From Pseudoxanthomonas suwonensis 11-1 (GTDB lineage: Bacteria > Pseudomonadota > Gammaproteobacteria > Xanthomonadales > Xanthomonadaceae), in contig NC_014924.1 of NCBI RefSeq assembly GCF_000185965.1, positions 62,001 to 126,000 of the forward strand: 64,000 bases of DNA. The letters are read 5' to 3'. Below the pieces are notes generated by a model. It made no database searches. It was not told the DNA's origin and was given only the letters and a program-made list of their open reading frames with translations. The position numbers and the translations under genes are program-made. Of this stretch, positions 295 through 8,684 are shown piece by piece (positions within the stretch are counted from its first letter, which is position 1; the number at the start of each line of letters is the position of its first letter).

Positions 295-391
295 GCGCGG
301 GAGTTTCGCAGAACCGTTCCGGTGAGGTGCGCCATGGCGCATTTCTACAAGATATGGTTGACCAGTGGCATGCGGCCACACTATGTTGTGT

Positions 392-582
392 CTGTCGGTT
401 CCGGTGGCCCAAGGCCACCGGATTAAAAGGGAAGTCCGGTGGGCCGCAAGGCGAATCCGGCACTGCCCCGCAGCGGTAACCGGAAACGAACCCGCGTCAA
501 TGCACTGGGCCACGGGCCTGGGAAGCAGCGGCAGTAGGCGAGGCCAGGCCTCACGTCCGGAAGTCCGAAGACCTGCCGACAG
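392..582 (+). ncRNA. Cobalamin (B12) riboswitch aptamer
   Basis: The leader has the conserved blocks of the cobalamin aptamer in the right order: a GGTGGCC...GGCCACC arm, GGGAAGTCCGGTG, then AATCC, CACTGCCCCGCAGCGGTAA, a CACTGG...GGGAAG block, and the B12 box AGTCCGAAGACCTGCC at 562-577. The closing P1 helix is visible as CTGTCGG (392-398) pairing with CCGACAG (576-582). The next gene is nrdA, whose enzyme class does not need B12. Class I reductases under B12 riboswitches are known from Streptomyces, where B12 turns off the B12-independent enzyme in favour of class II NrdJ. The same logic is inferred here. Confidence 0.95.
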
Positions 583-666
583 CCGCGCGAAGCACACCGC
601 GCGGTGCCGGTCGTGGATCCCCGGAGGGGGGAGGGCTGGTGAAGCATGGACCGCCGCAGCCGCGCT

Positions 667-770
667 GCGTCGCGGCCATTGCGACGCTGCCTCCGCATCC
701 TGCGTTCCGCACCGGATCCGAGTCCTTCGAGGGAGGGACACGGCGTGCATCACGCAACGGAGGATGCGCA
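667..770 (+). promoter_or_regulatory. Probable riboswitch expression platform with anti-Shine-Dalgarno pairing
   Basis: The nrdA ribosome binding site is GGAGG at 759-763. The eight bases AGGATGCG at 761-768, overlapping it, are exactly complementary to CGCATCCT at 694-701, so a helix could hide the site. Just before the anti-SD segment lies a strong hairpin, GCGTCGC (667-673) with GCGACGC (681-687). No U-run terminator is seen between aptamer and gene, which favours control of translation initiation over attenuation. The pairing is read from sequence; its use as a switch is inference. Confidence 0.55.
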
Positions 771-3215
771 ATGACGTCCCAGGACACCTCTTCGCCGGTC
801 GCCACGCCGGCGGATCCCGTCGTGGCCGCCGCACGCGCGGCACGGGCCATCGACCCGAACGACCACGTGCCACTGCCACCGGCCGCCAGCGGATCCGCGC
901 ACCCGCCCGAGGCCGAGGCCACCACCTGGATCACCAAGGAGGCCGGCAACCGGCGCCTGGCGTTCGATCCGGCGCGCCTGGAGCGCAGCATCGATGTAAT
1001 CGCGGCCGGGTTCCCGCAGCTGGAGATCGGCGACTACAAGCGCGCCGTGCTCGGCTTCGTCGCGCGCAAACCGGCGCTGTCGGCCGACGACCTGGTCGAC
1101 CACCTGATCCGCGAGGCCGAAGCGCGGGTGGACCTCACCGCACCGGAATGGGAGCGGTTCGCCGCGCGCCTGTACCTGCGCCGGCTGTACAAGCGCGCCA
1201 GCCGCAACCGCTTCTACGACGCCGGGCAGAAGTACGGCTCCTACGTCGGCCTGCAGGAGAGCCTGGCCGACCGCGGCATCTATTCCAACGACATCCTGCG
1301 CGCGTACTCCAAGGAAGAGCTGGAGGAAGCCGGGCGCATGATCGAGCCCGAGCGCGACAAGCTGTTCGCCTACAACGGCCTGTACCTGCTGGCCACGCGC
1401 TACCTGGCCACCGATACCGCCCGCAACGTCTACGAGCTGCCGCAGGAACGCTGGCTGACCATCGCCTTGTACCTGATGCAGGAGGAAAAGCCACGCGAGC
1501 GGCGCATGCAGCTGGTGGGCGAGGCGTACTGGGCGCTGTCCAACCTGTACATGACCGTGGCAACGCCGACCCTGCAGAACGCGGGCAAGGTGGGCGGCCA
1601 GCTGTCCAGCTGCTTCATCGACACGGTCGACGACAGCCTGCAGGGCATCTACGACTCCAACACCGACATCGCCCGCGTGTCCAAGGGTGGCGGCGGCGTG
1701 GGTGCCTACCTGGGCTACGTGCGCGCCGCCGGCGCGCCGATCCGCGGCGTGCCCAATTCCTCCGGCGGCGTGGTGCCATGGATCAAGCAGCTCAACAACA
1801 CCGCCGTGTCGGTGGACCAGCTCGGCCAGCGCAAGGGCGCGGTGGCGGTGTACTTGGACATCTGGCACCGCGACATCGAGGCCTTCCTCGACCTGCGCCT
1901 GAACAACGGCGACCAGCGCCTGCGCGCGCACGACGTGTTCACCGCGGTGTGCATCCCGGACCTGTTCATGGAGGCGGTGGAGCGGCGCGGCGACTGGTAC
2001 CTGTTCGACCCGCACGAGGTGAAGCAGGCCAAGGGTTGGTACCTGCAGGACTTTTACGACGAGAGGCGCGGCGAGGGCAGCTTCCGCAGCAAGTACCAGG
2101 AGCTGGTCGAGGACGGGCGCATCGGGCGCAGGACGGTCAAGGCGATCGACCTGTTCAAGCGGATCATGGTTTCGCAGCTGGAGACCGGCAACCCGTTCAT
2201 GTTCTACCGCGACGAGGTCAACCGGAAGAACCCGAACAAGCACTGCGGCACGGTGTATTCGTCCAACCTGTGCACCGAGATCCTGCAGAACCAGAGTCCG
2301 ACCCGGATGATCCAGGAGGTCATCTCCGGCAACCAGATCGTGACCACCAGGCAGGCCGGCGACTTCGTGGTCTGCAACCTGTCCTCGATCAACCTGGGCC
2401 GCGCGGTGGTCCAGGCCGATGGCCAGGGCGACCTGATCAGCGACGTGCTCGAGCGCCTGGTGCCGATCCAGGTGCGCATGCTCGACAACGTCATCGACCT
2501 CAACCAGCTGCCGGTGCCGCAGGCGACCATCACCAACCGCAGGTACCGCGCGATCGGCCTGGGCACCTTCGGCTGGCACCACCTGCTGGCGCTCAAGGGC
2601 ATCCACTGGGATTCGAAGGAGGCCGAGGACTACAGCGACGCGCTGTACGAGCGGATCAACCGCCTGGCGATCCAGGCCAGCATGGAGCTGGCGAAGGAAA
2701 AGGGCACCTACCCCGCGTTCCCCGGCAGCGACTGGCACACCGGCGCCTACTTCCGCGAGCGCGGCTACAACTCGCCCGAGTGGCTGGACCTGGCCGCGCA
2801 GGTGGCGGTCAACGGCCTGCGCAACGGCTGGCTGCTGGCGGTGGCGCCGAACATGTCCACCGCACAGATCGCCGGATCCAGCGCCTCGATCGACCCGGTC
2901 TACTCGGCGTTCTACTACGAGGAAAAGAAGGACTACCGCCGCCCGGTGGCCGCCCCCGGCCTGTCTCTGGAAACCTGGCCCTACTACGAGAAGGGCGCGT
3001 GGAAGGTGGACCAGTTCGCCTCGGTGCGGCAGAACGCGCGCCGCCAGCGGCACGTGGACCAGGCGATCAGCTTCAACCTCTACGTGCCCTCGTCGATCCG
3101 CGCTTCGGTGCTGCTGGAGCTGCACCTGGAGGGCTGGCGGCAGGGCCTGAAGACGACGTACTACGTGCGCTCGAACGATATCGACGTGGCCGAGTGCGAA
3201 TGGTGCAGTAGCTGA
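771..3215 (+). CDS. nrdA: Ribonucleoside-diphosphate reductase, large (alpha) subunit
   Basis: Class I ribonucleotide reductase catalytic subunit, 814 residues, reducing ribonucleoside diphosphates to deoxynucleotides in the cytoplasm with NrdB. The ATG at 771 is chosen because GGAGG lies 7 bases upstream. The active site is intact: the redox pair Cys281 (SSCFIDT) and Cys535 (VCNLSSINL), and the N-x-C-x-E centre Asn499, Cys501, Glu503 (NLCTE). The C-terminal tail ECEWCSS carries the shuttle cysteines 809 and 812 in CxxC spacing, as in NrdE-like tails rather than the CxxxxC of E. coli NrdA. Residues about 46-140 look like an ATP-cone allosteric domain, but several nucleotide-contact positions appear changed. 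It is the first gene after the B12 riboswitch and probably heads the nrdAB-flavodoxin-thioredoxin operon. Confidence 0.95.
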   Translation: MTSQDTSSPVATPADPVVAAARAARAIDPNDHVPLPPAASGSAHPPEAEATTWITKEAGNRRLAFDPARLERSIDVIAAGFPQLEIGDYKRAVLGFVARKPALSADDLVDHLIREAEARVDLTAPEWERFAARLYLRRLYKRASRNRFYDAGQKYGSYVGLQESLADRGIYSNDILRAYSKEELEEAGRMIEPERDKLFAYNGLYLLATRYLATDTARNVYELPQERWLTIALYLMQEEKPRERRMQLVGEAYWALSNLYMTVATPTLQNAGKVGGQLSSCFIDTVDDSLQGIYDSNTDIARVSKGGGGVGAYLGYVRAAGAPIRGVPNSSGGVVPWIKQLNNTAVSVDQLGQRKGAVAVYLDIWHRDIEAFLDLRLNNGDQRLRAHDVFTAVCIPDLFMEAVERRGDWYLFDPHEVKQAKGWYLQDFYDERRGEGSFRSKYQELVEDGRIGRRTVKAIDLFKRIMVSQLETGNPFMFYRDEVNRKNPNKHCGTVYSSNLCTEILQNQSPTRMIQEVISGNQIVTTRQAGDFVVCNLSSINLGRAVVQADGQGDLISDVLERLVPIQVRMLDNVIDLNQLPVPQATITNRRYRAIGLGTFGWHHLLALKGIHWDSKEAEDYSDALYERINRLAIQASMELAKEKGTYPAFPGSDWHTGAYFRERGYNSPEWLDLAAQVAVNGLRNGWLLAVAPNMSTAQIAGSSASIDPVYSAFYYEEKKDYRRPVAAPGLSLETWPYYEKGAWKVDQFASVRQNARRQRHVDQAISFNLYVPSSIRASVLLELHLEGWRQGLKTTYYVRSNDIDVAECEWCSS

Positions 3216-3314
3216 CTGCGCGTTCGCGCTAGTCAGGTTCCACGGTTCGCGCTGCGAACCGCGGGCCCCGCTCCGCATTCCTCCATACCCCCGCGCCTTC
3301 GGCGCGCCCCCTGA
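3213..3314 (+). other. Cluster of hairpins between nrdA and nrdB
   Basis: The 160-base gap holds four inverted repeats in a row: CTGACTGCGCG with CGCTAGTCAG starting at the nrdA stop; GGTTCGC-GCT-GCGAACC at about 3243-3259; GCGCCttcGGCGC near 3293; and CCCCCTGA-CTCAGGGGG near 3308-3324. None is followed by a clear T-run, so they are not obvious terminators. They could slow or process the transcript and set the alpha:beta subunit ratio; that is inference. Confidence 0.5.
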
Positions 3315-3375
3315 CTCAGGGGGCTTTCCTCCAGAGGGCTGGCTGCAGAAGGCGGCCGGCAAAGAGAGAAGAACA

Positions 3376-4440
3376 ATGAACGTTGTTGCTGCACCGCGAA
3401 CCGCTACCCGGCTGGATCGCATCCGCATCCTCGAGCCGCGCCATCCCAACCGTTCGACCGGCATCATCAACGGCACGACCTCGGGCATCCTCAACTGGAA
3501 CGACATCCCCTACCCGTCGTTCTATCGTGCCTACAAGGAGCTCTCGACCAATTTCTGGATCCCGGACGAGGTCGACATGAAGAGCGACGCGCGCCAGTAC
3601 GGCGAGCTGTCGGCGCGCGAGAAGAACGCCTTCGACTCCATCATCGGCCTGCTGGCCACCCTGGACTCGCCGCAGACCCGCTTCATCTACAACGTGGCCG
3701 AGTACATCACCGATCCGGCGGCGCATGCCAACGCGGCGATCATCGGCCAGCAGGAGGTGATCCACAACGAGAGCTACAGCTACGTGCTGGCCTCGATCAC
3801 CGACCTGGCCAACCAGAACCGGGTGTTCGAGATCGCGCGAACCCACCCGACCATCCTGCGCCGCAACGCCCCGATCATGGCCGCGTACGACGACTTCATG
3901 CGCGAGAAGACCGCCGAGACCCTGCTGCGTGCCCTTATCCAGTCCTCGATCCTGGAAGGCATCAACTTCTATTCCGGCTTCGCCTACTTCTACAACCTGG
4001 TGCGGCAGAACCGGATGGCCGGCACCGGCAAGATCATCAGCTTCATCAACCGCGACGAACTGGCGCACACCAAGTTCATCAGCGAGGTGATCCGCGCCAT
4101 CGTCGGCGAGAACCCCGAGCTGCAGACCGACGAGCTGGCCGACTACGTCCACCTCGCGTTCCGCCACGCGATCGAGCTGGAGACGCAGTGGACCGGCGAG
4201 GTCCTGGACGGCATCGACGGCATCGACGTGGACGAGATGATCCGCTACGTGAAGTACCGCGCCAACAAGATGGCCGGGATGCTGGGCATCGAGTCGCTGT
4301 ACACGGAGACCACCGACAACGTCATGCCCTGGATCCGCGCCTACGCCGACAACTTCACCGAAACCAAGACCGACTTCTTCGAGATGCGTAACGCCTCGTA
4401 CAAGAAGACCAATGCGGACAACGGATTTGATGATCTATGA
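3376..4440 (+). CDS. nrdB: Ribonucleoside-diphosphate reductase, small (beta) subunit
   Basis: Ferritin-like radical-generating subunit of class I ribonucleotide reductase, 354 residues. The metal ligands and radical residue are all in place: Asp97 (ATLDS), Glu127 and His130 in EVIHNESY, the radical Tyr134 four residues after the histidine, Glu194 (LEGINF), and Glu228 with His231 (RDELAH). The spacing between the last ligands equals that of E. coli NrdB. The tyrosine shows it is not the tyrosine-less class Ic type. Whether the cofactor is di-iron or di-manganese cannot be read from sequence, but the flavodoxin gene downstream raises the possibility of NrdI-type assembly. It lies 160 bases after nrdA and is probably co-transcribed. 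Confidence 0.95.
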   Translation: MNVVAAPRTATRLDRIRILEPRHPNRSTGIINGTTSGILNWNDIPYPSFYRAYKELSTNFWIPDEVDMKSDARQYGELSAREKNAFDSIIGLLATLDSPQTRFIYNVAEYITDPAAHANAAIIGQQEVIHNESYSYVLASITDLANQNRVFEIARTHPTILRRNAPIMAAYDDFMREKTAETLLRALIQSSILEGINFYSGFAYFYNLVRQNRMAGTGKIISFINRDELAHTKFISEVIRAIVGENPELQTDELADYVHLAFRHAIELETQWTGEVLDGIDGIDVDEMIRYVKYRANKMAGMLGIESLYTETTDNVMPWIRAYADNFTETKTDFFEMRNASYKKTNADNGFDDL

Positions 4441-4447
4441 GGCAGGT

Positions 4448-4572
4448 GATTCGTGATTGGTCATTCGTGATTGGAAAGAGCAAAACCTGCGTCGGCAGCA
4501 ATCGCGGGACACGGACATTGACCTCGAACCCTGGCCTTCATCGAATCACCAATCCCGAATCACCAATCACGG
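4448..4572. repeat. Interspersed GATTCGTGATTGG inverted repeat region
   Basis: Two head-to-tail copies of ATTCGTGATTGG-type sequence (about 4450-4475) face two inverted copies, CGAATCACCAATC and CGAATCACCAATCACG (about 4541-4572), across some 65 bases. Such short AT-richer ATTCGTGATTGGTGATTCG elements are scattered between genes in Xanthomonadaceae (general knowledge). Here the element separates nrdB from the flavodoxin gene and ends 8 bases before its start codon, so it takes the place of a normal ribosome binding site. Confidence 0.6.
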
Positions 4573-4579
4573 CTTTCAA

Positions 4580-5056
4580 ATGCCCCTCCTGATCGCCTAC
4601 GCCTCCCTCAGCGGCAACACCCGCGATCTTGCGCGGCAGGTACGTGCGCGCTGCGAGGCACGGGGGCATGCCGTGACCTGGCTGGAGGCCGGGTTGCACA
4701 CGCCGGCGGAGATCGGCGATCCGCGGCATGACCTCTACCTGCTGGGCAGCTGGACCGACAACGCCGGGCGCACGCCGGCGGAGATGAAGCGGTTCATCGG
4801 CGACCTGGTCGCGGCCGTGGGCCGTCCGGCGAACGTGGCTGTGTTCGGCACCGGCGAGACCCAGTGGGGCGAGGAGTACTACTGCGGCGCCGTGCGGCGC
4901 ATCGCCCGCTTCTTCGATTCACCCTTCCCGACGCTCGAGATCGAACAGATGCCGCATGGGCAGCGCGACGCACTGGCCATCCGCCGCTGGACCGACCAGG
5001 TCCTGGACACCATCGGAACCGACACCCATGCAGACCCTGCACGCCACCTCGCCTGA
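4580..5056 (+). CDS. Flavodoxin-domain protein of the nrd operon
   Basis: 158-residue flavodoxin-fold protein. The N-terminal strand and FMN-phosphate loop are clear (LLIAYASLSGNTRDLA, loop residues 9-14), followed by a YLLGSW strand and a later VAVFGTGETQWGEEYYCGAV segment in which aromatic residues would stack on the flavin. It belongs to the short-chain flavodoxins. In this position it may act as an NrdI-like partner that supplies electrons or oxidant to activate the NrdB metal-radical centre, but it is closer in appearance to ordinary flavodoxins than to classical NrdI. The start follows a repeat element and has no good ribosome binding site; an in-frame start at 4457 would lie inside the repeat and is not favoured. 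Its 3' end overlaps the thioredoxin gene by 29 bases in another frame. Confidence 0.85.
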   Translation: MPLLIAYASLSGNTRDLARQVRARCEARGHAVTWLEAGLHTPAEIGDPRHDLYLLGSWTDNAGRTPAEMKRFIGDLVAAVGRPANVAVFGTGETQWGEEYYCGAVRRIARFFDSPFPTLEIEQMPHGQRDALAIRRWTDQVLDTIGTDTHADPARHLA

Positions 5057-5354
5057 GGAACACGCTGCCGCGCTGGCGGCCCATCCCCACCTGCTGGTGG
5101 ACTACTGGAAGGACGACTGCCCGGGCTGCGCCATGCTCGACCTGTCGCTGCGCCGGTTCGCCGCGGAACCCGCGGCGAAGGGCCTGGTGCTGCTGAAGGT
5201 GAAGCTGGAGGACCTGGGCGAAGAGTTCTTCCGCGGCCTCGGCCTGCGCCAGACCCCGACCCTGTCGCTGTACCGCGACGGCCGCGAGGTCGCGCGCCTG
5301 CCGGGCTTCCAGTCGCCGGCGCAGGTCGCTGCCGCGGTCGCCAAGGTCTCCTGA
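5028..5354 (+). CDS. Thioredoxin-family protein of the nrd operon
   Basis: Small cytosolic thioredoxin, 108 residues, without signal peptide. The active site is Cys31-Pro-Gly-Cys34 in the context YWKDDCPGCAML, unlike the WCGPC of housekeeping thioredoxin. The cis-proline loop (RQTPTLSLY) and the final LPGFQSPAQV segment fit the fold. The start overlaps the flavodoxin gene by 29 bases, which suggests translational coupling. Being last in nrdA-nrdB-flavodoxin-thioredoxin, it is likely a dedicated reductant for the C-terminal cysteines of NrdA; this role is inferred from context, not shown by sequence. Confidence 0.85.
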   Translation: MQTLHATSPEEHAAALAAHPHLLVDYWKDDCPGCAMLDLSLRRFAAEPAAKGLVLLKVKLEDLGEEFFRGLGLRQTPTLSLYRDGREVARLPGFQSPAQVAAAVAKVS

Positions 5355-6431: not shown

Positions 6432-8684
6432 ATGAACGAGTTCCTGCAACGCTTCACGGTCGGCAAGCGCATGTTCGCCGGCTTCGGCCTCATGCTGCTG
6501 CTGATGGCGGCGATCGCCACGGTGTCGGCCGTCTCCCTCTCGATGCTGGAGCGCCACCTGCGCAGCATCGCCACCGAGCACACCACCAAGATCCGGCTGT
6601 CGAACCTGCTGTACGACCATGCCAACGAGCTGTACATCGACCTGCAGGCGGTGCTGCTGACCGCTGACGCCGAAGGCCAGCAGCTGGCGCTGGACAAGCT
6701 CACCGAAACCCGCGAGCACTTCGTCGCCACCTACGACGAGCTCGCGGCGATGCCGGGCGACGAGGCGGGCAAGCGCCTGGTGGCCGCCATCGGCGATGCG
6801 CGCCTGGCGACGGTGCCGACCAACAACGAGGTGATCGGCCTGGCCACCAGCGGCCAGCGCGAGGAAGCCCTGGCCTACCTCACCGCCACCGCGGCCCCGG
6901 GCATGCAGGCCTGGCGCGAGGCGGTGACCGCCAACCTCGAACACGAGCAGGAGATGATGGGCCAGGCCTACGCGGACGCCAGTGCCGCGGCCGACCGCAC
7001 CCGCGTCGCCATGTTCGCGGTCCTGGGGCTCGCGATCGTCCTCGGCGTGTTCCTCGGCATCGTGTTCACCCGCAGCCTCACCCTGCCGCTGGCGCGTGCC
7101 GCCGCGGCCGCCCGCGACCTGGCCGCCGGCCGCATCGAGGGCGAGCGCCTGACCGGCGGACGCGACGAGGTGGGCGAGGTGCTGCGCGCCGTCCAGGCCA
7201 CCCGCGTGTCACTGCGCACCCTGCTCGACGGCATGGCCGAGATGGGCCGCCAGCACGACGAAGGCCATATCTCGGCGCGCCTGGACCCGGAGGCGGTGCA
7301 GGGCGAGTACCGCACCCTCAGCGAGTTGATCAACGCGCAGATCGGCAGCCACATCGACGCCGCCCTGCTGGCCGCACACATGGCCGGGGCCTATGCCCGC
7401 GGCGACCTGCGCGAGGACTTCCCGCGCCTGCCGGGCGAGAAGGCGGTGCTGATGCACGCCATGGACGAGGTGAAGTCCAACATGCTGGCGCTCAGCGAGG
7501 AGATCGGCACCCTTAGCGGCGCCGCGGTGCATGGCGACTTCAGCCAGCGCGGCAACGAGGCCCGCTTCGAGTTCGGCTTCCGCGACATGGTCGCTAACCT
7601 GAACCGGTTGATGGCCACCGCCGACGGCAGCCTGCAGTCGCTGTCGCACCTGCTCAGGGACGTGGCCGACGGCGACCTGACCGCACGCATGGACGGCGAG
7701 TACGAGGGCGTGTTCGCCGACATGCGCGACGCGGCCAACGCCACCGTGCGCAACCTCACGGGCATCGTCGGCCGCATCCAGCAGGCCTCAGGCAGCATCA
7801 ACAACGCCGCCGCGGAGATCTCGCAGGGCAACGCCGACCTGGCCCGCCGCACCGAGCAGCAGGCCGCCAACCTGGAGGAAACCGCCGCGTCGATGGAGGA
7901 GCTCACCTCCACCGTGCGCCAGAACGCCGAACACGCGCGCCAGGCCAACCAGCTGGCGATCGGGGCGGCCGGGGTCGCCTCCGAGGGCGGCGTGGTGGTC
8001 GGCCAGGTGGTCGAGACCATGAGCGCGATCGAGGATTCCTCGCGCAGGATCTCCGAGATCATCTCGGTGATCGACGGCATCGCCTTCCAGACCAACATCC
8101 TCGCGCTCAATGCCGCGGTGGAGGCCGCGCGCGCCGGCGAGCAGGGCCGCGGCTTCGCCGTGGTCGCCTCCGAAGTGCGCACCCTGGCCCAGCGTTCGGC
8201 CGGTGCCGCCAAGGAGATCAAGCAGCTGATCGACGACTCGGTGCAGAAGGTGGCCGATGGCTCGGGCCTGGTGCGCAAGGCCGGGACCACCATGGGCGAG
8301 ATCGTCAGCAGCGTGCAGCGGGTGACCGACATCATGGCCGAGATCTCCGCGGCCTCGCAGGAGCAGACCGCCGGCATCGAGCAGGTCAGCCAGACCGTGG
8401 TGCAGATGGACGAGACCACCCAGCAGAACGCCGCGCTGGTGGAAGAGGCATCCGCGGCTGCGCGCGCGATGGAGGAACAGGCCAGCCAGCTGGTCGAGGC
8501 GGTGGCGGTGTTCCGCCTGGAAGCGGGGGCCGCGCGGCCGACGGCGCGTACCGCGTCGCGCCCGGCATCGCCGGCCGCGCCGGTGCAAGCCAGGCCGCAG
8601 CCGGCCCCGCGCCCGCGTGGTGGTCGTGCGTTCCCGGCGCTGTCGGTGGCGGCGGCCGCCGAGGGCGACTGGCAGGAGTTCTGA
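6432..8684 (+). CDS. Methyl-accepting chemotaxis protein
   Basis: A 750-residue transmembrane chemoreceptor. TM1 is at about residues 14-36 and TM2 at about 193-214, enclosing a periplasmic region of about 155 residues (probably a four-helix-bundle sensor). A HAMP domain follows TM2, then a second HAMP-like helical stretch (to about residue 420) and the cytoplasmic signalling coiled coil. Its tip, about residues 549-583, has the invariant [20 protein letters not shown] pattern. The last five residues are DWQEF, matching the xWxxF pentapeptide by which CheR and CheB dock on receptors. An Ala/Pro-rich linker (about 700-735) tethers this tail. A sigma-28 promoter lies upstream and a terminator follows. 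The ligand cannot be told. Confidence 0.95.

Follow-up and report, generated by a model that had tools for sequence, protein, structure and literature searches.

A cobalamin riboswitch leader before class I ribonucleotide reductase genes in Pseudoxanthomonas suwonensis and relatives, its co-occurrence with NrdJ and its probable persistence through gene exchange

Why should a ribonucleotide reductase (RNR) that is independent of B12 be placed behind a B12-sensing RNA? The question is raised by a locus of Pseudoxanthomonas suwonensis 11-1, situated in the window (the whole 64-kb stretch of DNA analysed here), where a cobalamin riboswitch precedes the genes of a class I RNR.

The leader and the genes behind it

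The aptamer occupies window positions 379-594 (+), which match the Rfam Cobalamin model (RF00174) over its full length (model 1-189 of 189) with 115.4 bits and E 3.1e-28, the gathering threshold being 31.5 bits; this is the sole Rfam match at gathering threshold within the 64-kb window. The initial annotation had recognised a cobalamin aptamer by its P1 stem and B12 box and had proposed a covariance search of the leader, and the search returned it at the same positions. P1, in which 392-398 (CTGTCGG) is exactly complementary to 576-582, closes the aptamer, and the B12 box, AGTCCGAAGACCTGCC, lies at 562-577. Our own covariance model, R1, built from 25 aptamers, gives 174.4 bits for the window sequence, itself a member of the R1 training set.

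Upstream, a sigma-70-like promoter (TTGACC-18-TATGTT, 358-387, +) was recovered by a pattern search that found one match vs 0.5 expected in shuffles, and the pattern TTG(A/C)C...CACTAT(C/G)TTG is present in 12 of the 14 relatives tried. Given this promoter-like pair, transcription would be expected to start about the 5' end of P1. The -10 element overlaps a palindrome, ACACTATGTTGTGT (378-391), that resembles an NrdR box and is treated here as a putative one. NrdR boxes are described, in the passages cited, as palindromes overlapping the polymerase site at RNR promoters and lying about three helix turns apart (PMC9110341, PMC4409342). The promoter that serves the riboswitch-bearing nrdA leader may also be a target of NrdR.

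Directly 3' of P1 stands a P13-type hairpin, CCGCGCG-AAGCACAC-CGCGCGG (583-604, +), which appears as a helix of 8 pairs when 22 leaders are folded to a consensus by RNAalifold; it is mostly invariant, with a compensatory change in one sequence, and its loop (L13) carries an invariant GCAC at 592-595. Three features of the post-aptamer leader (platform) are common to 22 relatives: this hairpin, a second one with compensatory changes, and a TGCGACGCCGC element that is paired. A GUGC at 745-748, just 5' of the Shine-Dalgarno (SD) sequence and nearly invariant in the 22 leaders, could pair with the GCAC of L13; this invariance places the pairing beyond covariation testing.

The first gene, nrdA (771-3215, +), encodes a class I RNR alpha subunit of the PRK09209 type, called type 1 below (PRK09209, 1438 bits, cut-off 1057; TIGR02506, 564 bits, cut-off 341; both NCBIfam), and nrdB (3376-4440, +) encodes the beta subunit (NF007184, 495 bits, cut-off 310). 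An ATP-cone in NrdA gave no Pfam match at E 1e-3, and the N-terminal ~150 residues resemble a degenerate one by eye only. NrdB has Tyr at the E-x2-H-x3-Y position, and its D97, E127, H130, Y134, E194, E228 and H231 are all invariant in an alignment with five type-2 R2 proteins (see below); we take these seven residues to be the diiron ligands and the radical Tyr of class Ia R2. Next come a gene for an RNR-associated flavodoxin (4580-5056, +; TIGR01754, 173.7 bits, cut-off 163.8) and, overlapping it, a thioredoxin-like gene (5028-5354, +), over the cut-off of Pfam PF00085 and below that of NCBIfam TIGR01068. The order nrdA, nrdB, flavodoxin, thioredoxin, as first annotated behind the aptamer, is thus borne out by profile matches, and it recurs in 77 of the 80 named loci, which are the best-scoring part of 210 that were confirmed; flavodoxin and thioredoxin were not found in L065, L076 and L120, which span 6.8-7.8 kb only, nor was nrdB in L076. 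Gaps of 160 nt (nrdA-nrdB) and 139 nt (nrdB-flavodoxin) separate the genes, and a single transcript is putative. The second gap holds, at 4446-4575, a short GATTGGTGATTCG-like repeat in both orientations, the unit ATCACCAATC having 2 copies in the window vs 0.03 expected; a similar repeat is read through within an ORF near position 8453 of locus L008.

NrdJ, B12 and the direction of control

The genome of the window is a single contig of 3,419,049 bases (G000), the named row closest to it in the nrdAB tree being P. suwonensis DSM 17175 (L044). A class II nrdJ gene had been predicted elsewhere in it, and one is present on the same chromosome at G000:C1:2862132-2864045 (584.7 bits, cut-off 399.95). 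Three Cobalamin riboswitches were found in the genome, with 150 of 212 candidates scored, and they precede nrdA, metE and btuB, so that both B12-independent isozymes and B12 uptake stand under B12 riboswitches. Use of B12 is supported by a BtuB-type receptor (over the cut-off of TIGR01779) and MetE (over cut-off), both behind riboswitches, and MetH, over cut-off as two overlapping ORFs (G000:C1:1982521-1986128). An adenosyltransferase of the CobA type, the one type sought, was not found in the genome.

Because the B12-dependent NrdJ is also encoded, a lowering of the B12-independent enzyme by B12 is the expected logic. In all likelihood, the riboswitch of the nrdA leader turns the class I RNR operon down when B12 is plentiful, cobalamin being bound by the predicted aptamer, and without B12 the operon would be expressed. 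We infer ligand binding, the direction of control and its exertion on translation, through burial of the nrdA SD. In the fold, the SD region (757-768, +; GGAGG at 759-763) is paired with a predicted anti-SD strand at 694-705 (+), with one mismatch at 760 and pairing probabilities of at least 0.92 except at 768 (0.78), and 583-800 folds more stably than shuffles do (z -2.45). The SD helix is absent from the RNAalifold consensus of the 22 leaders; compensating changes in it were seen by eye, in the closest clade only. No intrinsic terminator was found on the + strand between the aptamer and the nrdA ATG, and the longest T run in 583-770 is 2 nt.

Since the predicted hairpin covers the SD and no terminator was found, translational control is the mode that most likely applies, a reading to which moderate confidence is attached. 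Its rival, an action on transcription by Rho-dependent or other premature termination, is possible though rather doubtful. The ~190-nt leader 3' of the aptamer leaves room for it, and in Propionibacterium acnes much nrdAB transcription appears, in the part of the report cited, to stop before the first gene (PMC3848588). Against it stand the predicted pairing of the nrdA SD and the lack of an intrinsic terminator just described.

Occurrence and decay of the aptamer in relation to NrdJ

Sixty genomes, including that of the window, were searched with RF00174, NrdJ and class I NrdA, and the results were joined by position; up to 35 RF00174 candidates were scored per genome, and weak matches may be lost. 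Class I NrdA was matched in 43 genomes, NrdJ only in 14 and neither in 3. Before split NrdJ proteins were searched anew, the 43 fell into 33 that carried both riboswitch and NrdJ, 2 with NrdJ only, 2 with riboswitch only and 6 with neither. Three were left out as not scorable: G013 and G040 have NrdJ but merely 35 and 402 bases 5' of the nrdA match (in G013, locus L016, the match begins at base 36 of the contig), and in G050 NrdJ is represented by a fragment and nrdA by its rear part only. Among the 40 scored, the riboswitch lies upstream of nrdA in 34 of 34 genomes with NrdJ vs 1 of 6 in which NrdJ was not found, this one (G023) being a genome 72% complete. In the remaining five (G010, G032, G033, G042, G052) neither NrdJ nor a riboswitch at nrdA was found, and around nrdA in G010, G032 and G033 a second Rfam search gave no match at gathering threshold.

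Split NrdJ proteins account for several apparent exceptions. A strict whole-length search, at 1e-100, missed NrdJ because of an in-frame insert; G035, L113 and L082 were rejected on this ground as cases of a riboswitch without NrdJ, and in G035, G129 and G098 the protein is present and split. Such inserts lie near residue 320-345 in the NrdJ of G035, G098, G129, G130 and G137. The one examined (G129; L130, 400-1500) matches LAGLIDADG_3 with 88 bits and Intein_splicing with 28.4, below the cut-off of 35.8, and is probably an intein; an NrdJ intein is known in Azotobacter chroococcum, according to the passage cited (PMC4465626).

The second survey comprised the 80 named loci, in all of whose genomes NrdJ was sought; 55 seemingly NrdJ-negative genomes (10 + 45) were searched again with the NrdJ protein. 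NrdJ was found in 29 of the 80 (25 together with L113, L082, L114 and L121) and not found in 51. R1 was run over the 80 loci, of which L050 and L118, with merely 38 and 289 bases upstream, are unscored. Intact aptamers (142.9-195.6 bits) occur in 26 of 28 NrdJ-bearing loci vs none of 50 NrdJ-less ones, where the best score is 124.7. Five NrdJ-less loci (L105, L055, L052, L053, L047) score 50.9-124.7 bits and three (L074, L078, L066) 13.0-17.6 bits at the homologous place; in the other 42 no remnant above 10 bits is present, and decay there is supposed, not seen. Smaller searches that covered 32 of the NrdJ-less or counterexample loci gave no further remnants. L081 has no R1 match, though L144 scores 15.3 bits and the nrdA locus L012 of the same genome as L144 shares a 150-base stretch with L081. 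The two surveys partly cover the same genomes: 9 of the 30 nrdA loci L012-L041 have a 150-base stretch in common with one of the named loci.

The two NrdJ-bearing exceptions, L114 (Stenotrophomonas UBA4619) and L121, have an NrdJ with insert and no riboswitch match at Rfam threshold at either of their two nrdA copies (see below). The record of L121 (JAHREJ010000010.1) is titled Bacillus subtilis SK7B5; its nrdA locus is Stenotrophomonas-like and falls among Stenotrophomonas sequences in the tree, by which the record is judged mislabelled or contaminated. A Stenotrophomonas genome counted as NrdJ-less contains an NrdJ-like fragment (G135:C4:62346-62732) with 57% identity and a stop codon.

The co-occurrence might merely reflect shared descent within few clades, which is considered unlikely. 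These two counterexamples speak for it, as does the small number of informative events. On the NrdA+NrdB tree the minimum number of changes is 8 for NrdJ and 6 for the aptamer, and among 6 independent supported pairs differing in NrdJ the aptamer agrees in 4, is opposite in none and does not differ in 2, which leaves 4 informative pairs (sign test p 0.125). Corrected for descent, the association has too few independent events for significance, and the Fisher values of 1e-18 and 9e-6 ignore descent and come from overlapping sets. Against shared descent, NrdJ-less rows are scattered in the tree (the Xanthomonas main clade, X. albilineans, Luteimonas L047/L053, L052 and L056/L073), on branches of which some are unsupported, and graded aptamer decay is seen in several of these clades. 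Moreover, other good Cobalamin riboswitches are retained in two NrdJ-less genomes (two in G010, one in G032), so B12 sensing as such is not lost there. The repression logic predicted at first annotation agrees with the co-occurrence of aptamer and NrdJ, with the reservations of the two counterexamples and of the pair test.

Integrity was examined in aptamers outside the R1 set, because half of the 26 intact ones were in it. In 60 columns invariant in the 25 model aptamers, none is broken in 13 of 13 NrdJ-bearing aptamers outside the set, and 8-26 are broken in each of 8 remnants from NrdJ-less genomes. Compared with their nearest R1 member, 2 of the 13 are identical, 4 are 96-99% identical and 7 are 79-92% identical. 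Rfam scores are 65.2 bits for L105, 63.5 for L052, 52.9 for L055 and 33.6 for L053 among the decayed aptamers, with no match for L047, vs 77.4-112.3 in the 12 NrdJ-bearing named loci tested; the nrdA aptamers of the NrdJ-bearing G034 and G035 score 50.4 and 72.8, that of G034 (L036) having a long insert and belonging to the 25 from which the invariant columns were derived. Rfam scores thus fail to separate the groups, and it is the invariant core by which decay is recognised. Covariance models replaced a B12-box regular expression as the sole test of presence, which had missed decayed aptamers and minus-strand loci.

Further remnants occur in Stenotrophomonas-like genomes, which have a second class I nrdA. 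Shortened R1 matches (11.6-59.7 bits) lie upstream of it in 8 of 8 fetched loci (L134-L140, L142), including 25.2 and 19.5 bits (L134, L135) in the genomes of the counterexamples L114 and L121; none reaches the Rfam threshold. Weak matches of this kind are present in 2 of 3 NrdJ-less genomes of the 60-genome set (L143, 13.4; L144, 15.3; not L145). As opposite-strand matches reach 15.3 bits and stray matches in the window 11.2, remnants of 11-15 bits were called from their place and sequence letters, and the promoter sequence contributes part of the remnant scores. Surviving parts are the promoter, the palindrome, the 5' strand of P1 and the P2 hairpin, and in several remnants parts of the platform. 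That the aptamer is itself a relic without present role, retained through the overlap of its 5' end with the promoter and NrdR-like box, finds some support in this survival of the 5' parts in NrdJ-less genomes after loss of the core, but is very improbable in view of the unbroken columns in the 13 aptamers outside the model set (the window's own was inside it), seven of which are as far as 79-92% identity from the nearest set member.

Exchange of nrdAB behind the leader, and known systems

Two types of nrdAB occur among the relatives. Type 1, as in the window, has a NrdA over the PRK09209 cut-off and is accompanied by flavodoxin and thioredoxin; type 2, compared in seven stretches (G007, G002, G109, G031, G036, G001, G012), is 33-35% identical to the window in the matched parts of NrdA and 23-26% in those of NrdB, with no flavodoxin or thioredoxin match, and the Tyr position is kept in both R2 types. 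In six type-2 loci the aptamer is 70-82% and the platform 68-75% identical to the window, compared with 74-87% and 70-88% in three type-1 loci and 56-63% in shuffled platform controls; identity at the coding start is 76-85% within type 1 vs 57-59% across types. By these alignments the leaders are judged homologous and the coding genes not close kin.

The chromosomal place is also the same, at least in two type-2 members of the window's genus: G007 has five upstream genes of the window in order and five downstream, and G002 three upstream and two downstream, with extra DNA between. Some neighbour genes of the window lie on both sides in Stenotrophomonas G109; G031 and G036 have downstream ones only, G001 has one upstream, and G012 none within its 16 kb. 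G109 has both types: its type-2 genes, behind a remnant leader, lie close to the old neighbours, and its type-1 genes, for which there was no riboswitch match, lie at another site. Homologous leaders, some at the same place, before distant nrdAB pairs point to an exchange of genes under a retained leader. Outside the family, a riboswitch precedes nrdA in 7 genomes, six of them type 2 by score (G036, G037, G039, G046, G047, G055; the seventh is G041), for which reason type 1 is probably the newcomer. It is considered probable that the nrdA leader, composed of the NrdR-like box, the B12 riboswitch and a conserved platform of ~190 nt, forms a regulatory unit outliving its genes, behind which an older nrdAB was swapped near the start codon for an unrelated nrdAB-flavodoxin-thioredoxin cassette, and which was eroded repeatedly where NrdJ is missing.

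The riboswitch itself belongs to a known kind, since publications on other bacteria already describe how B12 represses B12-independent isozymes. The isozyme rule reportedly goes back to Rodionov et al. in 2003, and a Streptomyces nrdABS operon with a B12 riboswitch is said to have been described by Borovok et al. in 2006. In the Streptomyces system, as in the window, a cobalamin riboswitch precedes class Ia nrdAB and the genome also encodes class II NrdJ; the host differs in being an actinobacterium, and nrdS takes the place of flavodoxin and thioredoxin in the operon. In the passages cited, the nrdABS B12 switch is referred to (PMC4991794), and isozymes of B12-dependent enzymes are named as one class of cobalamin-regulated genes (PMC3766115). 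For P. acnes, the part of the report cited places cobalamin riboswitches before nrdAB and nrdDG; nrdAB has a NrdR box as well, the window having its putative NrdR-like one, the nrdRJ operon has no riboswitch, and transcription appears to end early, in contrast to the window leader, in which no terminator was seen (PMC3848588). In delta-proteobacteria, B12 repression of a B12-independent RNR was likewise proposed where NrdJ is present, in a passage that cites earlier work, the enzyme there being class III nrdDG and not class I nrdAB (PMC545781).

The initial annotation called a whole operon with its redox partners less familiar in a gammaproteobacterium; the logic itself is not unfamiliar, being already in print for Streptomyces, P. 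acnes and delta-proteobacteria. For the Xanthomonadaceae, no description of the arrangement, its decay or its gene exchange was found in the open-licence literature searched. Related genomes still hold aptamer remnants in different states, an apparent natural experiment on isozyme riboswitches in which the aptamer seems to be maintained by selection only as long as the B12-dependent partner is present. The riboswitch leader, moreover, appears to have been kept across the exchange of the controlled enzyme genes within one genus, where the two versions are available for direct comparison. In these two respects, the remnants and the exchanged genes, the family goes beyond the known isozyme-riboswitch pattern.
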